DNA of 64,000 nucleotides from positions 62,001-126,000 of the forward strand of contig NZ_BMKD01000004.1 in the NCBI RefSeq assembly GCF_014643835.1, written 5' to 3'. The notes under the pieces are model-generated. The model saw nothing but the letters and a program-made list of their open reading frames with translations. It did no database searches and had not been told where the DNA came from. The DNA comes from Mucilaginibacter rubeus. GTDB taxonomy: Bacteria > Bacteroidota > Bacteroidia > Sphingobacteriales > Sphingobacteriaceae. This document shows, piece by piece, positions 5,293 to 63,626 of the stretch (the first letter of the stretch is position 1; each line of letters begins with the position of its first letter). The translations under genes were made by a program, and so were the position numbers.

Positions 5293-5355
5293 ATTTAATA
5301 CCAAAGCTCATAGCTTTATGCTTTTTGCGTTCTGCTTTCAGCTGTAAATTAACTT

Positions 5356-22068: not shown

Positions 22069-22291
22069 TCGGCTGCAAAGCTATGTTATTTTTTTATTTC
22101 GATGTATCGGATAGTCAATTAACAAAAAAACTTCATTTTGTTTTCAGGAAACATTAAAACCAGTAAATCAGGTTATTATTTCGGGGAGGGATCAATGTAA
22201 AATGGCAAAGGCAATCTCACACCAGTGTAATCGTACTTTCAACTGAGTGTAATCATAATATTAAATGGGTGAAATCCTTGTTTCAAAGTGT

Positions 22292-22299
22292 TATTTTTG
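22292..22299 (+). promoter_or_regulatory. -7 box of the aguB operon
   Basis: TATTTTTG at 22292-22299 matches TAnnTTTG and lies 16 bases before the chosen aguB start. The leader carries TTTGGAGATG, a weak ribosome-binding sequence. Confidence 0.5.
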
Positions 22300-22315
22300 C
22301 GCAAATTTTTTGGAG

Positions 22316-23185
22316 ATGAGTAAAGTAAAAGTTGGTTTAGTACAAATGAGCTGTACTGCTGATAAAGAGCAGAACCTGCAAAAAGCAATTGTTAAAGTAA
22401 GGGAAGCGGCTGCTAAAGGCGCGCAAATAGTTTGTTTACAGGAACTTTTTACCTCACTTTATTTTTGCGATGAAGAAGATTACAATAATTTTAAGCTGGC
22501 CGAAGCTATTCCCGGCCCATCAACCGATGAGCTTTCAAAAGTTGCTGCCGAGCTTAATGTGGTGATCATTGCTTCATTGTTTGAAAAACGTGCTCAGGGT
22601 GTTTACCATAACACCACCGCTGTGCTTGATGCCGACGGAAGCTATTTAGGCAAATACCGCAAAATGCATATCCCTGATGACCCGGGCTTTTACGAAAAAT
22701 TTTACTTCACTCCCGGCGATTTAGGTTACAAAGTATTTAACACCAAATTTGCCCGTGTAGGTGTACTGATCTGCTGGGACCAATGGTATCCTGAAGCTGC
22801 ACGCATCACTGCCCTAATGGGTGCCGATATATTATTTTACCCAACCGCTATCGGCTGGGCTACCACGCAGGATGAAGCAACCAACGTTGAGCAATACAAC
22901 GCATGGCAAACTATTCAACGTTCGCACGCTGTAGCTAACGGCATACACGTAGTAAGCGTTAACCGAGTGGGCGAAGAAGCCGGCGTAAAATTCTGGGGCG
23001 GTTCATTCTTTGCCAATCCTTTCGGCGCGATCATCCATCAAACATCACACGATGATGAAGAAGTTGTAGTACAGGAATTGGATCTTGATAAATCTGATTA
23101 TTACAGAAGTCACTGGCCGTTTTTGAGAGATCGTCGCATAGATTCTTATCAGCCGATAACTAAAAGGTTATTAGACGAGGACTAA
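22316..23185 (+). CDS. aguB: N-carbamoylputrescine amidase
   Basis: AguB hydrolyses N-carbamoylputrescine to putrescine, carbon dioxide and ammonia. The nitrilase-fold catalytic triad is present: Glu43 (LQELF), Lys116 (YRKMHIP) and Cys153 (LICWDQWYPE). The protein is 289 residues, the usual length. The start at 22316 (MSKVKVGLVQ) was chosen over the in-frame codon at 22265 because a promoter box lies between them. The agmatine deiminase gene follows 411 bases later, interrupted by a four-helix-bundle gene. Confidence 0.96.
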   Translation: MSKVKVGLVQMSCTADKEQNLQKAIVKVREAAAKGAQIVCLQELFTSLYFCDEEDYNNFKLAEAIPGPSTDELSKVAAELNVVIIASLFEKRAQGVYHNTTAVLDADGSYLGKYRKMHIPDDPGFYEKFYFTPGDLGYKVFNTKFARVGVLICWDQWYPEAARITALMGADILFYPTAIGWATTQDEATNVEQYNAWQTIQRSHAVANGIHVVSVNRVGEEAGVKFWGGSFFANPFGAIIHQTSHDDEEVVVQELDLDKSDYYRSHWPFLRDRRIDSYQPITKRLLDED

Positions 23186-23191
23186 TGTCTT

Positions 23192-23666
23192 GAGTCCGAA
23201 AGTCAGCAAAGTCCGAAAGAAAGAGTTTATATGAGTTTTAAGTTTGAAAAGTTAGTTGTATGGCAAAAAGCTGTCGATCTGTCGGCCGACATTCATGACC
23301 TAACCAAAACTTTTCCAAAAGATGAGTTGTTTATTTTAACATCTCAGATAAAACGGGCTGCGGATTCTATTTCATTAAATATTGCTGAAGGCTCGACCGG
23401 CCAATCAAACGCAGAGTTTAATAAATTTGTCGGTTATGCTTTACGATCGGATATTGAAGTTGTGGGATGTCTTTACTTAGCACAAAAGCGGAATTTGATA
23501 TCTGACGAAAATTTTTCAAAACTATATCAGCAATGCGAAGAAATTTTAGCAATGTTGAATGGTTTGCGTAACTCTCTAAAATAACCAATTATTAAATGTC
23601 ACCATTGAAAGATATATCACCCCAATCCTCACTTCCCGACTTTCGGACTTCCGGACTTTCGGACTC
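23192..23666. mobile_element. Putative cassette: inverted repeats enclosing a four-helix-bundle gene
   Basis: The left arm at 23192-23219 reads GAGTCCGAAAGT...AAGTCCGAAAG, and the right arm at 23640-23666 is its inverted copy, with about 24 of 28 positions matching. Each arm contains AGTCCGAAAG twice. Between them lie the whole four-helix-bundle gene and the start codon of aguA. The left arm begins six bases after the aguB stop. The right arm is translated as part of the deiminase N-terminus. In RNA the arms could pair and loop out the enclosed gene. Mobility is inferred from position and structure. Confidence 0.6.
23231..23584 (+). CDS. Four-helix-bundle protein (23S rRNA intervening-sequence protein family)
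   Basis: This 117-residue protein has the signature of the S23/IVP family: FEKLVVWQKAVDLSADIH near the start and SQIKRAADSISLNIAEGSTGQSNAEF in the middle. Family members fold as four helices, form pentamers in known structures and have basic surfaces suited to nucleic acid binding. They were first found in insertions within 23S rRNA genes. Here the gene sits between aguB and aguA inside an inverted-repeat pair and has no metabolic link to either. What it does is unknown. Confidence 0.9.
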   Translation: MSFKFEKLVVWQKAVDLSADIHDLTKTFPKDELFILTSQIKRAADSISLNIAEGSTGQSNAEFNKFVGYALRSDIEVVGCLYLAQKRNLISDENFSKLYQQCEEILAMLNGLRNSLK

Positions 23667-24699
23667 GCCTTTGGCGCAAGGCTTCTCTTTCCCTGCTGAA
23701 TGGGCTAAACATACGGCTACCTGGCTAAGCTGGCCTCACAAAGAGGCATCATGGCCTGGCAAGATCGATACCATTTACGCGCCTTACATTGAGTTTATAA
23801 AGATTGTTACCGAAGGCGAACTGGTACGCATTAACGTGACTGATGCTGATATGAAGGCCTCGGTGATTTTCCAGTTGCAAAACGCAGGTGTTGATCTTAA
23901 CAAAATAGAGATCTTTGAATTCCCGACCAATGATGCCTGGTGCCGCGACCACGGTCCGGCGTTTTTGATAAACCCTGCTACTAAACAAAAAGCCATTGTT
24001 GACTGGGGTTATAACGCCTGGGGCTGTAAGTACCCTCCTTTTGACCTGGATGACGTGATCCCTACCAAAATAGGTAATCACTTCGGTTTGCCGGTATTTA
24101 ATCCCGGCATAGTAATGGAAGGCGGCTCGGTCGACTTTAACGGCAAAGGCACTATTTTAACTACCACTGCCTGCCTGCTCAACAAAAACCGCAACCCGCA
24201 GCTTAACCAGCAACAGATTGAAAGCTACCTGCAAAATTATTATGGCGCAGAACAGATCCTTTGGCTGGGTGATGGTATTGTAGGTGACGATACCGACGGA
24301 CATATCGACGATATCACCCGCTTTGTAAACGAGGATACCGTAGTTACCGTTGTTGAGGAAGATAAGAATGATGAGAACTACCACATCCTTCAGGAAAACC
24401 TCGAAACGCTGAAGACCATGCGCCTGCTTAACGGCAAACAGCTAAACATTGTTGAATTGCCCATGCCTGATGCGGTTGTTTATGAAGATACCCGCTTACC
24501 GGCCTCTTACGCTAATTTTTATATAGCCAACTCGGCCGTGATTGTGCCTACTTACTGTTCAAAGAACGATGATAAAGCGCTTGATATATTAACCAAATGC
24601 TTCCCCGACCGAAAGGTTGTAGGCATTGACAGCACCGACATTATCTGGGGCCTCGGCAGTTTCCATTGCCTCAGCCAGCAGGAACCAAGCCCCCTCTAA
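23596..24699 (+). CDS. aguA: Agmatine deiminase
   Basis: AguA converts agmatine to N-carbamoylputrescine, the substrate of the neighbouring AguB. The 367-residue protein has the guanidino-modifying fold with MEGGSVDFNGKGT (174-186), TDGHIDD (233-239, catalytic His236) and the nucleophile Cys358 in GLGSFHCLSQQEP. The family core begins near residue 30 (FSFPAEWAKHTATW). Residues 13-25 (LPDFRTSGLSDSP) come from the right repeat arm of the cassette. TTG at 23671 would skip this extension and is a possible start. The last three residues (SPL) and the stop are formed by the repeat at 24688. Confidence 0.95.
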   Translation: MSPLKDISPQSSLPDFRTSGLSDSPLAQGFSFPAEWAKHTATWLSWPHKEASWPGKIDTIYAPYIEFIKIVTEGELVRINVTDADMKASVIFQLQNAGVDLNKIEIFEFPTNDAWCRDHGPAFLINPATKQKAIVDWGYNAWGCKYPPFDLDDVIPTKIGNHFGLPVFNPGIVMEGGSVDFNGKGTILTTTACLLNKNRNPQLNQQQIESYLQNYYGAEQILWLGDGIVGDDTDGHIDDITRFVNEDTVVTVVEEDKNDENYHILQENLETLKTMRLLNGKQLNIVELPMPDAVVYEDTRLPASYANFYIANSAVIVPTYCSKNDDKALDILTKCFPDRKVVGIDSTDIIWGLGSFHCLSQQEPSPL

Positions 24700-24850
24700 A
24701 TCTCCCCCGGGTAAGGGAGACTTGGGGCGTCGCCCTTTACGCTAATGACCATCAATGCCGTTTCTTAAAATACTAAAAAAATTAAAGCCCTCTGCATAGT
24801 GGGCTTTAATTTTTTTAGTCTCCCCTACCGGGGGAGATTTAGAGGGGGCT
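24688..24850. repeat. G/C-rich inverted repeat overlapping the aguA stop
   Basis: Arms at 24688-24722 and 24817-24850 are imperfect inverted copies of AGCCCCCTCTAAATCTCCCC. The right arm is identical over all 34 bases to 36489-36522 inside the 4-hydroxyphenylpyruvate dioxygenase gene. The interior holds TAATGACCATCA, shared with the repeat at 11.6 kb, and a terminator at 24774-24816. Confidence 0.85.
24774..24816. terminator. Bidirectional terminator inside the repeat
   Basis: The stem ATTAAAGCCC/GGGCTTTAAT has a ten-base loop and is flanked by an A run and a T run. It lies 75 bases after the aguA stop and is the likely end of the aguB-aguA transcript. Confidence 0.88.
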
Positions 24851-24907
24851 TTCACCGCCTTTATCCCCTACTTTACCGACATCTCCCCTTACATCGCCAA
24901 CAATTGA

Positions 24908-27701: not shown

Positions 27702-28037
27702 ATGAACTGGTACGTAGCAAAATTAGTTTTCAGGGTGATAAGCGGGGATGGCGACCATCAGGCGCAGTTTGATGAGCAATTAAGGTTAATCAGCGCAGAT
27801 AATGAACTGGTGGCTTATGAAAAAGCCAACCGCATAGGTCACGCCAACCAGGATAGCTTTAAGAATATTGAAAAGCAAACCGTTAAATGGCAATTTATTG
27901 ATGTAGCCGAGCTTAACCAGCTTGGCGAACTTACCGACGGTGCTGAATTGTATTACAACATACACGAAACACCCGATGCCGACCTGTACATTGCATGGGC
28001 GCATCATAAGTCGGCCTTATTGGGCATCAGAAATTAA
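27702..28037 (+). CDS. DUF4288-type small protein
   Basis: This 111-residue soluble protein begins MNWYVAKLVFRVISGDGDH, the characteristic opening of DUF4288 proteins, followed by EQLRLISADNELVAYEKANRIG and WQFIDVAELNQLGELTDGAELY. No catalytic residues or membrane segments are seen. It lies between the LiaF-like and kinase genes with gaps of about 30 bases, so it is part of the same transcription unit. Function unknown. Confidence 0.82.
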   Translation: MNWYVAKLVFRVISGDGDHQAQFDEQLRLISADNELVAYEKANRIGHANQDSFKNIEKQTVKWQFIDVAELNQLGELTDGAELYYNIHETPDADLYIAWAHHKSALLGIRN

Positions 28038-35220: not shown

Positions 35221-36378
35221 ATGCCTCTATATCATAGTTTAGGATCAATTCCGCCTAAGCGGCATACGCAATTCCGTAAGCCCGATGGTAGTTTATATGC
35301 CGAAGAGCTGGTATCAACCGAAGGTTTTTCAAGCCTTTATTCACTGGTGTACCACGCCTATCCGCCCACCATTGTAAAAACCCTTGGCGAGCCTTATAGT
35401 GTGGAACCTAAAATAGCACGCGAAAAACACCTGAAGCATACCAGTTTGATAGGTTTCAATATCCAGCCCGAGGATGACTACCTGCAAAGCCGCAAGCCGG
35501 TACTGGTAAACAGCGATCTGCATATTTCGCTGGCAGCGCCGCGCCAAAGCATGACCGACTATTTTTATAAGAACAGCCAGGCCGATGAGGTAGTTTTTAT
35601 TCACGAAGGTACAGGCATTTTAAAAACAGGTTTCGGCAATATCAAGTTCCAATACGGCGACTACCTGGTGATCCCCCGCGGCACCATTTACCAGATGGAG
35701 TTTGACGGCATGGGCAACCGACTTTTTATTGTAGAAAGTTTTAGTCCTATTCGTCCGCCAAAGCGTTACCGTAACCAGTACGGGCAGCTAATGGAACATT
35801 CACCTTATTGCGAGCGCGATATCAAACTACCGGCCAATCTGAAAACTTATGATGAGCATGGCGATTTCAAGATCCTGATCAAAAAGCAAGGCCTCATTTA
35901 TCCTTATATCTATGGCACCCATCCTTTTGATTTTATTGGCTGGGATGGCTTCCATTATCCCTGGGCGCTGTCCATCCATGATTTTGAACCTATAACCGGG
36001 CGCTTACACCAGCCGCCTCCGGTACACCAAACCTTTGAGGGTAATAACTTCGTGATCTGCTCCTTTGTGCCCCGCAAGTTTGATTACCACCCGTTATCTA
36101 TCCCTGCTCCTTACAACCACAGCAATGTAGACAGCGACGAGGTTTTGTACTATGTAGATGGCGATTTCATGAGCCGCAAAAGCGTGGTAAAAGGGCAGAT
36201 CACCCTGCACCCCGGTGGCATTCCACACGGCCCGCATCCCGGCTCGGTCGAAAAATCAATAGGCAAAGAATCAACGGACGAACTGGCTGTGATGATCGAC
36301 CCATTCAGGCCGCTGATGCTTACGGAAGACGCGATTAAGATTGAGGACGAAAATTATTATAAGAGCTGGCAAGAGTAA
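35221..36378 (+). CDS. hmgA: Homogentisate 1,2-dioxygenase
   Basis: HmgA opens the aromatic ring of homogentisate to maleylacetoacetate using ferrous iron and oxygen. The 385-residue protein has the cupin-like core with YNHSNVDSDEVLYYVDGDF and HPGGIPHGPHPG, which carry iron-binding and catalytic histidines and a glutamate. It begins MPLYHSLGSIPPKRHTQF, the usual start in Bacteroidota; the longer frame from 35146 adds 25 residues with no homology that I can see. The HPPD gene follows 84 bases later and supplies its substrate. Confidence 0.95.
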   Translation: MPLYHSLGSIPPKRHTQFRKPDGSLYAEELVSTEGFSSLYSLVYHAYPPTIVKTLGEPYSVEPKIAREKHLKHTSLIGFNIQPEDDYLQSRKPVLVNSDLHISLAAPRQSMTDYFYKNSQADEVVFIHEGTGILKTGFGNIKFQYGDYLVIPRGTIYQMEFDGMGNRLFIVESFSPIRPPKRYRNQYGQLMEHSPYCERDIKLPANLKTYDEHGDFKILIKKQGLIYPYIYGTHPFDFIGWDGFHYPWALSIHDFEPITGRLHQPPPVHQTFEGNNFVICSFVPRKFDYHPLSIPAPYNHSNVDSDEVLYYVDGDFMSRKSVVKGQITLHPGGIPHGPHPGSVEKSIGKESTDELAVMIDPFRPLMLTEDAIKIEDENYYKSWQE

Positions 36379-36411
36379 GGCGAAAGGTTAAAGGCGAAAG
36401 CTGAAAGGTTT
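36379..36411 (+). repeat. Short-period GAAAGG phrase
   Basis: Repeated words of the type AGGCGAAAGGTTAAAGGCG recur with a period of about 7-13 bases between hmgA and hppD. The phrase is not coding. Confidence 0.6.
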
Positions 36412-36462: not shown

Positions 36463-37608
36463 ATGAACACACAAACTTTAGATAAAAAAGTCTCCCCTAC
36501 CGGGGGAGATTTAGAGGGGGCTGACTTCCTGCCCCTTAACGGCACCGATTATGTGGAATTTTATGTTGGCAATGCCAAACAGGCAGCCCATTATTATAAA
36601 ACCGCCTTCGGCTTTCAAAACCTGGCTTATGCCGGGCCCGAAACCGGCGTGCGCGACAGGGCATCATACGTTTTGCAGCAGGGTAAGATCAGGATAGTGC
36701 TTACCACTCCCCTGCACTCTGATCACCCTATTGCCGATCATGTTAAAAAACATGGCGATGGTGTAAAAGTGCTGGCCCTTTGGGTTGACGACGCCTACGA
36801 TGCCTTTGAGCAAACCACCAAACGAGGTGCCCAGCCTTACCAGCAACCGCAAACCCTGACTGATGAAAACGGCGAAGTACGAACCAGCGGCATTAAATTA
36901 TACGGCGAAACGGTGCACATGTTCATTGAACGTAAAAACTACAAAGGCTTGTTTTTACCGGGATATCAAAAGCTGGAAAATAACTACAACCCGGCAGATA
37001 CCGGCCTGCTATATGTTGACCATTGCGTAGGCAACGTTGGCTGGCATAAAATGAACGAATGGGTTAACTTTTATGAAGAGGTTTTAGGTTTCCGCAATAT
37101 CCTCACCTTTGATGATAAAATGATCTCTACTGAGTATTCGGCTTTGATGAGCAAGGTGATGAGCAACGGGAACGGCTATGTAAAATTCCCAATCAATGAA
37201 CCTGCCGAGGGTAAAAAGAAATCGCAGATTGAAGAATACCTTGAATTTTATGAGGATGAAGGTGTACAGCACCTGGCCCTTGCAACGCATGATATTGTAG
37301 CCACCGTTACCGAGCTGCAAAACCGGGGCGTTGAGTTCTTAACTGTTCCCTCAACCTATTATGATGATCTGATCGACCGCGTTGGCCATATTGATGAAGA
37401 CCTTGAGCCATTAAAACGCTTAGGTATTTTGGTCGATCGTGATGACGAAGGATACCTGTTGCAGATCTTCACCAAACCTGTTGAAGACAGGCCGACGTTG
37501 TTTTTTGAGATCATCCAGCGCAAGGGTGCCAAATCATTCGGTGCCGGTAATTTTAAAGCCCTGTTTGAGGCCATTGAACGTGAACAGGAAGCGAGAGGGA
37601 ATCTTTGA
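36463..37608 (+). CDS. hppD: 4-hydroxyphenylpyruvate dioxygenase with repeat-derived N-terminal insert
   Basis: HppD converts 4-hydroxyphenylpyruvate to homogentisate, the substrate of the upstream HmgA. The 381-residue protein has the two VOC halves and all three iron ligands: His187 (YVDHCVG), His270 (GVQHLAL) and Glu349 (LFFEIIQRKG). Residues 10-20 (VSPTGGDLEGA) are encoded by a 34-base repeat at 36489-36522 that is identical to a non-coding repeat arm at 24817-24850. The insert is in frame and falls in the flexible N-terminal tail, before the first VOC strand at about residue 28, so activity is probably kept. Confidence 0.95.
   Translation: MNTQTLDKKVSPTGGDLEGADFLPLNGTDYVEFYVGNAKQAAHYYKTAFGFQNLAYAGPETGVRDRASYVLQQGKIRIVLTTPLHSDHPIADHVKKHGDGVKVLALWVDDAYDAFEQTTKRGAQPYQQPQTLTDENGEVRTSGIKLYGETVHMFIERKNYKGLFLPGYQKLENNYNPADTGLLYVDHCVGNVGWHKMNEWVNFYEEVLGFRNILTFDDKMISTEYSALMSKVMSNGNGYVKFPINEPAEGKKKSQIEEYLEFYEDEGVQHLALATHDIVATVTELQNRGVEFLTVPSTYYDDLIDRVGHIDEDLEPLKRLGILVDRDDEGYLLQIFTKPVEDRPTLFFEIIQRKGAKSFGAGNFKALFEAIEREQEARGNL
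36489..36522 (+). repeat. Repeat arm inside hppD
   Basis: All 34 bases are identical, in the same orientation, to 24817-24850. It begins AGTCTCCCCTACC and ends GAGGGGGCT. It is read through in frame by hppD. Confidence 0.95.
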
Positions 37609-61984: not shown

Positions 61985-62407
61985 ATGAATATCTTTAAAA
62001 CGATTTTAGGAGTTTTATTTGCCTTTTTAATTTTTACTGGCCTGATATCTGCATTAGCATACGCCAACCCTTTAAATGATTTTATGGCTAAAAACATTGT
62101 TACTGATGCAATGTATCATTTCCTTGTGTTTTTCATTCTGTGTTTTGTTCTGATAGTACTTACTGCTTATTTCGTTCCCCGGCCTAAAAAAATCGGGGTT
62201 TCAATATCGACCATCATTTCTTATTTGCTTGTTGGTGTAGCAATCTTTTACCAATTTGCTATATTGAAAAACCCTGTCAATTTCGTTTTGCCGTTCAGCG
62301 TATCAGGAGTAGTTTTAGGTTTGTCTTTAGGACTACTTTTAAGCAAAAGACTTTTTAAAAAGAAAGGTTGGGATTCTACCAAAGCAATCGAATTGGAGAC
62401 TTATTGA
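61985..62407 (+). CDS. Four-span membrane protein of unknown function
   Basis: This 140-residue protein has four hydrophobic segments (about 5-27, 44-64, 76-93 and 100-118) and a basic tail. There is no recognised family. It lies between the lysozyme and integrase remnants and is AT-rich like them, so it probably arrived with the element or was placed there by its decay. Its own promoter box is intact. Confidence 0.65.
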   Translation: MNIFKTILGVLFAFLIFTGLISALAYANPLNDFMAKNIVTDAMYHFLVFFILCFVLIVLTAYFVPRPKKIGVSISTIISYLLVGVAIFYQFAILKNPVNFVLPFSVSGVVLGLSLGLLLSKRLFKKKGWDSTKAIELETY

Positions 62408-63494: not shown

Positions 63495-63626
63495 AGATAT
63501 GAGATATCAGATGTGAGATATGAGATTTTGCATGGTAAAGATTCCGGCAATACCTTTATTTCACATCTGCTATATTCCTCTGAGAATGCAGCATTTCTCA
63601 CGTCTCATATCTCACATCTCATATCT
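63495..63626. repeat. Inverted pair of AGATATGAG phrases
   Basis: AGATATGAGATATCAGATGT and further GAGATATGAGAT words (63495-63526) are mirrored by CTCATATCTCACATCTCATA words (63597-63626). It lies between dapD and the glycosyltransferase and could form a long hairpin in RNA. Confidence 0.75.

Follow-up and report, generated by a model that had tools for sequence, protein, structure and literature searches.

An intact IVP gene between inverted octamer arrays in an aguB-aguA operon: a putative mobile relative of the rRNA intervening sequences

The closest described systems to the locus analysed here are the intervening sequences (IVSs) of rRNA genes. In the passages of PMC4990558 that deal with it, the 23S rRNA IVS of Coxiella burnetii is an element of 428–444 nt in which an S23p ORF lies between terminal inverted repeats, with tandem heptamers (GACAGAT) just upstream of the S23p start; its 28-bp stem is cut by RNase III, and the S23p ORF is reported to be decaying. 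The same passages describe the S23p of X. campestris as a homopentameric toroid, and S23p as having no known function (PMC4990558). Genes of this family, termed IVP in the following, are also known from CPR rRNA insertions, as stated in part of PMC11270868, and one located between cmr3 and cmr2 in cas loci has been discussed as having a cas-locus function, in passages of PMC3936711 that leave flanking arrays unmentioned. Heptamer arrays have been described separately: the TAACTGA repeats of Beggiatoaceae, Cyanobacteria and Bacteroidetes are intergenic and often near start codons, and no mention of S23, four helix or intervening was found in the text (PMC4679880).

In the window (the whole stretch of 64,000 nucleotides of DNA that was analysed), an IVP gene with an array of short units on each side lies between two host genes, in the following layout:

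22316..23185, + strand: aguB-like N-carbamoylputrescine amidase gene (CN_hydrolase, PF00795), the upstream host gene; ORF 22265-23185, with TIGR03381 as best NCBIfam match, below its cut-off; the alignment with a homologue (L180) begins at 22316
23192..23219, + strand: left array of octamer units, with AG anchors at 23193, 23201, 23210 and 23218 (spacing 8, 9, 8)
23231..23584, + strand: IVP gene (23S_rRNA_IVP / S23p, four-helix bundle), 117 aa, intact; PF05635 E 3.3e-36, TIGR02436 E 9.1e-35
23626..23666, - strand: right array of inverted period-8 units, with five anchors spaced exactly 8 nt apart; in the aguA frame it codes for about residues 11-24
23596..24699, + strand: aguA-like agmatine deiminase gene (PAD_porph), the downstream host gene, with its ATG 11 nt past the IVP stop and within the element

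The names aguB and aguA follow the Pfam families CN_hydrolase and PAD_porph and the best NCBIfam matches (TIGR03381, and PRK13551/TIGR03380), all of which score under their cut-offs. The only ORF of at least 60 aa between the arms is the PF05635 gene. From the position between aguB and aguA, it is clear that the element is not inside a 16S or 23S rRNA gene, and the window gave no Rfam match at gathering score.

The inverted arrays on the two sides share a period of 8 (left steps 8, 9, 8). The right-array anchors, AG on the minus strand, are the CT dinucleotides at 23632, 23640, 23648, 23656 and 23664; with five anchors this array has the most common number found in the wider sample described below, and the left array has four. 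A repeat search returned 18-nt arms at 23192-23209 and 23649-23666 that are 89% complementary. The scan of the window for periods 7 and 8 gave the right array (23626-23665, period 8) and did not report the left one, which was read off the sequence. In a preliminary description of this DNA, the left arm began six bases after the aguB stop and the right arm lay within aguA, and both placements agree with the present coordinates (aguB stop at 23185, arm from 23192; array inside ORF 23596-24699). The arms had also been given there as 28 and 27 bases, each with AGTCCGAAAG twice. Both copies per arm are indeed exact (23193 and 23210 on the plus strand, 23640 and 23656 on the minus strand), but the right arm is longer, starting from 23626 and comprising five anchors. 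Allowing up to one mismatch, the only other matches to AGTCCGAAAG in the whole window are at 23648, the middle unit of the right arm, and at 62325.

When the window element is set beside the rRNA IVS of Coxiella, as far as that is described in PMC4990558, terminal inverted repeats enclose the IVP/S23p ORF in both, and the lengths are 475 nt (23192 to 23666) and 428–444 nt, respectively. The two differ in that one is in rRNA and the other in an mRNA operon, in having heptamers and octamers, respectively, and in that the Coxiella ORF is decaying whereas the window IVP is intact and under purifying selection. The tandem heptamers of the Coxiella IVS (PMC4990558) strengthen the kinship. The cas-locus gene resembles the present one in lying between operon genes. 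The TAACTGA repeats resemble the cassette arrays in being intergenic heptamer arrays, and differ in being mainly direct repeats of one word (PMC4679880).

That the gene belongs to the family encoded in rRNA IVSs, as had been proposed from the sequence, is borne out by scores well above the curated cut-offs (PF05635 124.2 bits against 33.8; TIGR02436 119.2 against 24). The single-chain AF2 model of the window IVP has a pLDDT of 95.9 and a TM score of 0.97 to 2gsc; the homologue structures 2gsc and 2rld contain five chains per entry. Among the family matches of the IVP, no catalytic domain was found. The family is widespread in the phylum, with an IVP/S23p match in 45 of 61 sampled genomes and up to 16 per genome, and it evolves under strong purifying selection (median dN/dS 0.03 by NG86, from 12 usable of 18 pairs in which dS was often high). 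A resemblance between PF05635 and Avd has been noted in part of PMC10053308, and the window IVP model has a similar four-helix-bundle fold to Avd in 4dwl and to DGR RNP chains of the 8ub-series (TM 0.74–0.79, at Foldseek E values of 0.1–0.7). Identity with DGR Avd was rejected, as the DivGenRetAVD equivalog scored 20.1 bits against a cut-off of 80; a literature search for papers on RNA binding by Avd found none.

To see how general the layout is, two sets of IVP loci with their flanks were compared, related species entering all counts as separate loci. The first comprised the best 80 of 361 IVP loci from a scan of species genomes, ranked by closeness to the window IVP. Fifty of these are at agu, either between aguB and aguA or next to one of the two genes, as are the loci of the window and of the nearest genome (G001); the other 30 lie elsewhere. 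The second comprised the 58 best-scoring loci of a family search, chosen independently of similarity to the window; among 57 of these rechecked for position, only L180 is at agu. Complementarity between the two flanks reached a score of at least 26 at 61 of 81 IVP loci (3 of 84 loci were dropped for short flanks); neighbouring ORFs reached it in 16 of 433 cases and dinucleotide shuffles in 16 of 1620. A score of at least 30 was attained in 51, 6 and 2 of these, respectively. In the second set 40 of 58 loci passed the arm threshold, with differing words (AGATWTG, AGTATCA, GAATCAA, AGCTGAA, AGTTTGC and others). The threshold was missed by 20 of 81 loci in the first set, by 18 of 58 in the second and by 19 of 31 IVP rows in a set of three related genomes, in which 12 passed. 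Among 18 loci from five Omnitrophota, Schekmanbacteria and Thermodesulfovibrionales MAGs, several have the array layout, partly with other words, some lack it and one is too near a contig end; no rRNA match was found in 20 IVP loci run against Rfam (17 of these 18, and L053, L059 and L077).

The arrays show several regularities when the loci are pooled (156 analysed, of 160 non-redundant and 171 in all, 4 being short-flanked). The best tandem period was 7 (44 loci), 14 (45) or 8 (53) in 142 of 156 loci, compared with 39 of 156 shuffles, 27 of which were at 14. Among the 155 loci left after removal of one N-containing locus, 121 have a left array and 130 a right array above the 95% shuffle level; 106 have both, and 145 have at least one. 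In 76 of the 106 two-array loci both arrays are of AG type and run in the expected sense; another 15 loci are tied, and in the remaining 15 one array or both run the opposite way. The periods of the two arms, chosen independently, were (7,7) in 53 cases and (8,8) in 33, with a single (7,8), no (8,7) and 9 other combinations among 96. Array length peaks at 4.25–4.5 units (30 of 109 left and 34 of 119 right arrays), and the number of [A/G]G anchors at exact spacing is most often five at either period, in 53 of 138 arms for period 7 and in 40 of 90 for period 8. Arrays of period 7 and 8 differ in median length (31 versus 34 nt, p 0.001) and in unit number (4.43 versus 4.25, p 0.02); in the non-agu loci only unit number differs (p 0.016; length p 0.27).

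The words themselves follow the gene. Units are more similar to those of the other arm of the same locus than to those of other loci, with identities of 0.718 versus 0.466 in the 49 loci labelled non-agu, a label that may wrongly include L180, and of 0.740 versus 0.656 in 41 agu loci; the locus's own arm was the best match in 22 of the 49 and 4 of the 41. Similarity of unit vocabulary tracks IVP identity (Spearman 0.53 for same-period pairs, and 0.45 when pairs with the agu label on both loci are left out). For the AGATWTG, AGTATCA and GAATCAA cassettes this agreement is plain descent, since the sites were orthologous in all 19 pairs compared. By these comparisons gene and arrays are inherited together, the unit vocabulary following the IVP lineage. 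A one-word repeat (AGTCCGAAAG) for all cassettes was rejected, many other vocabularies being present around IVP genes; many other members of the family do have flanking repeats, AGTCCGAAAG being one vocabulary of many. Among the matches listed in searches of open-licence PMC full text, none was seen to describe arrays with a shared period and lineage-specific words around IVP genes, or the IVP-less relatives described below.

Our preferred reading, which we consider somewhat probable, is that of a mobile IVS-type cassette in mRNA operons, the end arrays of which are probably read by the pentameric IVP. The window element would be one copy of a widespread cassette that consists of the IVP gene and a degenerate array of 7- or 8-nt units on each side, usually inverted. 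In single-stranded RNA or DNA, each array would be bound by one IVP pentamer, with one [A/G]G anchor per IVP subunit, and the two arrays would mark the ends of the element. A precedent for such reading is TRAP, a ring of 11 subunits that binds 11 (G/U)AG repeats, as given in part of PMC4027176. The same principle would hold for IVP, namely regularly spaced short motifs that contain A/G, one for each subunit; the numbers differ, with 11 (G/U)AG motifs for TRAP and mostly five motifs at 7–8 nt spacing in the arrays that IVP may bind. The TRAP fold differs from the IVP fold. If the arrays are IVP binding sites, the function of a large orphan family becomes directly testable, including which nucleic acid is bound, why there are five marks and how the vocabulary is read.

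Of the 64 agu loci with a right array (of 72; 8 lack one), 61 keep the aguA frame open throughout that array. An in-frame ATG lies upstream of the right array in 42 of the 64, at an offset of 0–6 nt from the IVP stop in 24 of the 42. In the window the aguA start codon follows the IVP stop and precedes the right array, which therefore codes for the AguA N-terminus. An in-frame start codon after the right array is also present in 9 of the 64 loci, and in the window a TTG at 23671, after the right arm, could serve as aguA start. It is likely that aguA translation is coupled to IVP, and the host may tolerate the element because aguA translation would be coupled to the IVP stop. Of 79 non-agu loci with both neighbours (9 lacking a neighbour were dropped), 59 are in sense between same-strand genes, 5 are antisense and 15 lie between different-strand genes. 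Most cassettes examined are placed in sense orientation between genes of the same strand.

The inverted arms could also be of use by pairing with each other, as the preliminary description had proposed, with control of aguA translation as a possible effect. In the predicted fold of 23170-23700 they do pair, in runs of 13 and 11 base pairs; the z value is -2.47, and 3 of 100 shuffles folded equally well. But selected pairing is not supported by register covariation or by a clear G-U bias. Unit identity was 0.754 in register and 0.741 off register (n=74; 40 up, 26 down; p 0.16). Differences of G-U-able and A-C type stood at 79:102 in register and 274:414 off register, with no clear G-U excess, and an arm-register permutation test was flat (mean 0.526, n=81, p 0.32). 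A power check by simulation indicated that 20% copied positions would be detectable. An expectation of compensatory pairing between the arms failed in these tests. The arms agree in vocabulary and not base by base; in some, such as those of L010, all positions are identical (28 of 28). Shared vocabulary without register is what is expected of two copies of a binding array, while a selected duplex should add register.

These results bear on a reading in which the RNA duplex itself is the functional part, as in rRNA IVSs: a long-range stem would be maintained, would loop out the IVP ORF and, in the agu mRNA, would be a substrate of RNase III cleavage, the IVP being incidental. The predicted pairing of the arms (z -2.47), the RNase III cleavage of the 28-bp Coxiella stem (PMC4990558), the period and vocabulary common to both arms, and a constant stem length of about 31–34 nt, compatible with the array-length data, would all fit it. 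We nevertheless consider it unlikely. No register effect or clear G-U excess was seen, where the simulation would have detected 20% copied positions; the IVP is under strong purifying selection; and, with the right arm read in frame as the AguA N-terminus, cutting of the stem in the IVS manner would part the aguA ATG from the body of the gene in 42 of the 64 loci.

Whether the cassette is a fixed part of the agu operon can be judged from operons that lack it, as had also been suggested at the outset. In the family of the nearest genome, 126 of 151 genomes had an aguA match and 70 sites were read: 29 have an IVP gene, 39 have aguB upstream with no IVP match and 2 have neither. The two host genes overlap or almost touch at several of the IVP-less junctions. 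One agu site (L087) has both arms and no IVP, and two (L115 and L145) have a single arm. A hairpin of GTCATTGCGAGG type is found instead at the IVP-less agu junctions L089, L092, L094, L101 and L119, meaning that the junction accepts several kinds of insert.

Conversely, the same IVP lineage is found outside agu. The set that includes the window IVP comprises 18 tree rows (support 98, SH-aLRT from a quick search), of which 9 are at agu, 4 at a recR junction (recR-SSS, where the ORF opposite recR has no Pfam match), 3 at a liaF-HK junction and 2 elsewhere (L018, and L175 between the adenylate kinase and Obg genes, adk-obg). A second lineage, with 7-mer arrays, is also at agu in the same genus, including G001, and groups with the non-agu loci L067 and L181. 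Nine changes of the agu label are needed on the IVP tree, which is based on 118 columns for 155 rows, leaves 58 of its 152 inner branches open and has places where long branches meet. As side observations, at the liaF-HK junction of the window a 111-aa ORF of other sequence is present (27702-28037), where L010, L013 and L014 carry an IVP cassette, and the IVP gene at one agu locus with 7-mer arrays (L001, G001:C41) has no in-frame ATG at its start and looks frameshifted near the second codon.

The distribution also bears on a domesticated regulator, in which the IVP would bind two arrays, one beside its own start and another in the 5' codons of aguA, thereby tuning the conversion of agmatine to putrescine, and would be kept by the host for that purpose. 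Such a role would suit the location of 50 of the best 80 IVP loci at agu, the sense orientation, the 0–6 nt distance between IVP stop and aguA ATG at 24 of the 42 loci with an in-frame ATG before the array, and the IVP dN/dS of 0.03. However, 39 of the 70 sampled agu junctions have aguB and no IVP, the same IVP lineage is present at the recR, liaF-HK and adk-obg junctions, and two lineages with differing arrays occupy the agu site, and we regard this explanation as distinctly improbable.

Comparison of flanks and of close genomes points to movement, as our preferred reading of a mobile cassette would have it. For the AGTCCAT-like cassettes at 13 non-agu loci, flank similarity was found in 1 of 78 pairs (in 12 pairs one side was too short), and for the AGTCCGAA-type cassettes at six non-agu loci flanks were shared in 1 of 15 pairs. 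Three genomes of the same genus, about 80–94% identical in the compared stretches, contained four IVP loci without a partner in those stretches. For both of the two that were tested (L277 and L288), one genome has the cassette and the other two have 43 or 60 nt in its place; these cassettes score 20 each, under the arm threshold, only one side of L277 carries a clear array, and with three genomes gain and loss are indistinguishable. The mobility that the preliminary description had deduced from position thus no longer depends on position alone, since the same IVP lineage and vocabulary are present at unrelated sites and close genomes differ in whether they carry two of the cassettes. From these patterns we infer that the element may have moved.

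In addition to the complete cassette, the window contains arrays that stand without an IVP gene:

63495..63626, + strand: IVP-less mini-element, AGATATG AGATATC AGATGTG AGATATG AGAT, then a 69-nt spacer and an inverted array (SW 43 against a 99% null of 22, from period scan and mate search)
36377..36407, + strand: solo array AAGGCGA AAGGTTA AAGGCGA AAGCTGA AAG, at the stop of an HgmA-like ORF ending at 36378; the mate search up to 700 nt away gave nothing above the null
5313..5343, - strand: solo array GCTTTAT GCTTTTT GCGTTCT GCTTTCA GCT, located between two ORFs; likewise without a mate exceeding the null up to 700 nt away

The mini-element is located between a dapD-like ORF (stop 63490; Pfam THDPS_N_2) and the next ORF (ATG 63632), which has no Pfam match. 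Of 21 genomes of the genus, 12 contain 7-mer arrays and 15 contain 8-mer arrays, while a backward-read control gave none. Among 124 merged 7-mer arrays, neighbours within 300 nt were head-in in 24 cases (one an overlapping pair), head-out in none and tandem in one. Of 60 loci examined for mini-pairs, 11 hold pairs, all head-in and all 7-mer, and the rest none by the strict pattern. Most such arrays are remote from the gene, 97 of 99 7-mer arrays in five genomes being more than 700 nt from any IVP gene. Miniature relatives of the cassette without an IVP gene exist.

Gene-bearing copies together with many short, gene-less inverted-repeat copies are a feature of the REPIN-RAYT and MITE families, and the cassette resembles them in this respect. 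It is unlike REPIN-RAYT in that it has no tyrosine transposase, that its ends are tandem arrays and that short copies are found in genomes without the cognate IVP. Identity with REPIN-RAYT was rejected, the ORF between the arms being PF05635 only, with no element-encoded tyrosine transposase. A RAYT-like dependence of the mini-arrays on the cognate IVP was not found across genomes (judged by eye, with no statistic); one genome (G164), for example, has 37 7-mer matches and no match to the corresponding IVP type. That the mini-arrays do not track the cognate IVP speaks against simple dependence in trans.

One may also ask whether the arrays need a reader at all. If they were a mutational by-product, arising by slippage and template switching in intergenic DNA, their tandem structure and arms as alike as those of L010 would follow. 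We consider this very improbable indeed, because the periods are largely 7 and 8, the anchor count peaks at five, the mini-arrays face head-in, the vocabulary is tied to the IVP lineage, and complementarity of flanks at a score of at least 26 is rare at control ORFs (16 of 433).

A broader and more tentative extension, which we think possible but on balance doubtful, is a class of mobile elements spread over several phyla and having ring-matched array ends. At each end a pentamer would read five [A/G]G marks 7 or 8 nt apart, each lineage would have its own filler words, and protein, period and vocabulary would co-evolve; the rRNA IVSs would be members that landed in rRNA genes. Should the flanking arrays be IVP binding sites, the rRNA IVSs, the operon-borne IVP genes (including those of cas loci) and many short intergenic hairpins would be one class of element.

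Some further observations concern other arrangements of IVP genes and other repeats. In one region of three related genomes IVP genes occur in a row (L272, L281 and L289), some about 1.6 kb apart, and in a Thermodesulfovibrionales MAG an IVP cassette adjoins a CRISPR array (L059 and L312; Rfam CRISPR-DR7). Just past aguA in the window, a perfect 24-nt inverted repeat, AAGCCCCCTCTAAATCTCCCCCGG, is present at 24687-24710 and 24828-24851 and encloses a 22-nt hairpin at 24772-24819. A stretch related to this repeat forms N-terminal codons of an HPPD-like ORF (36463-37608).
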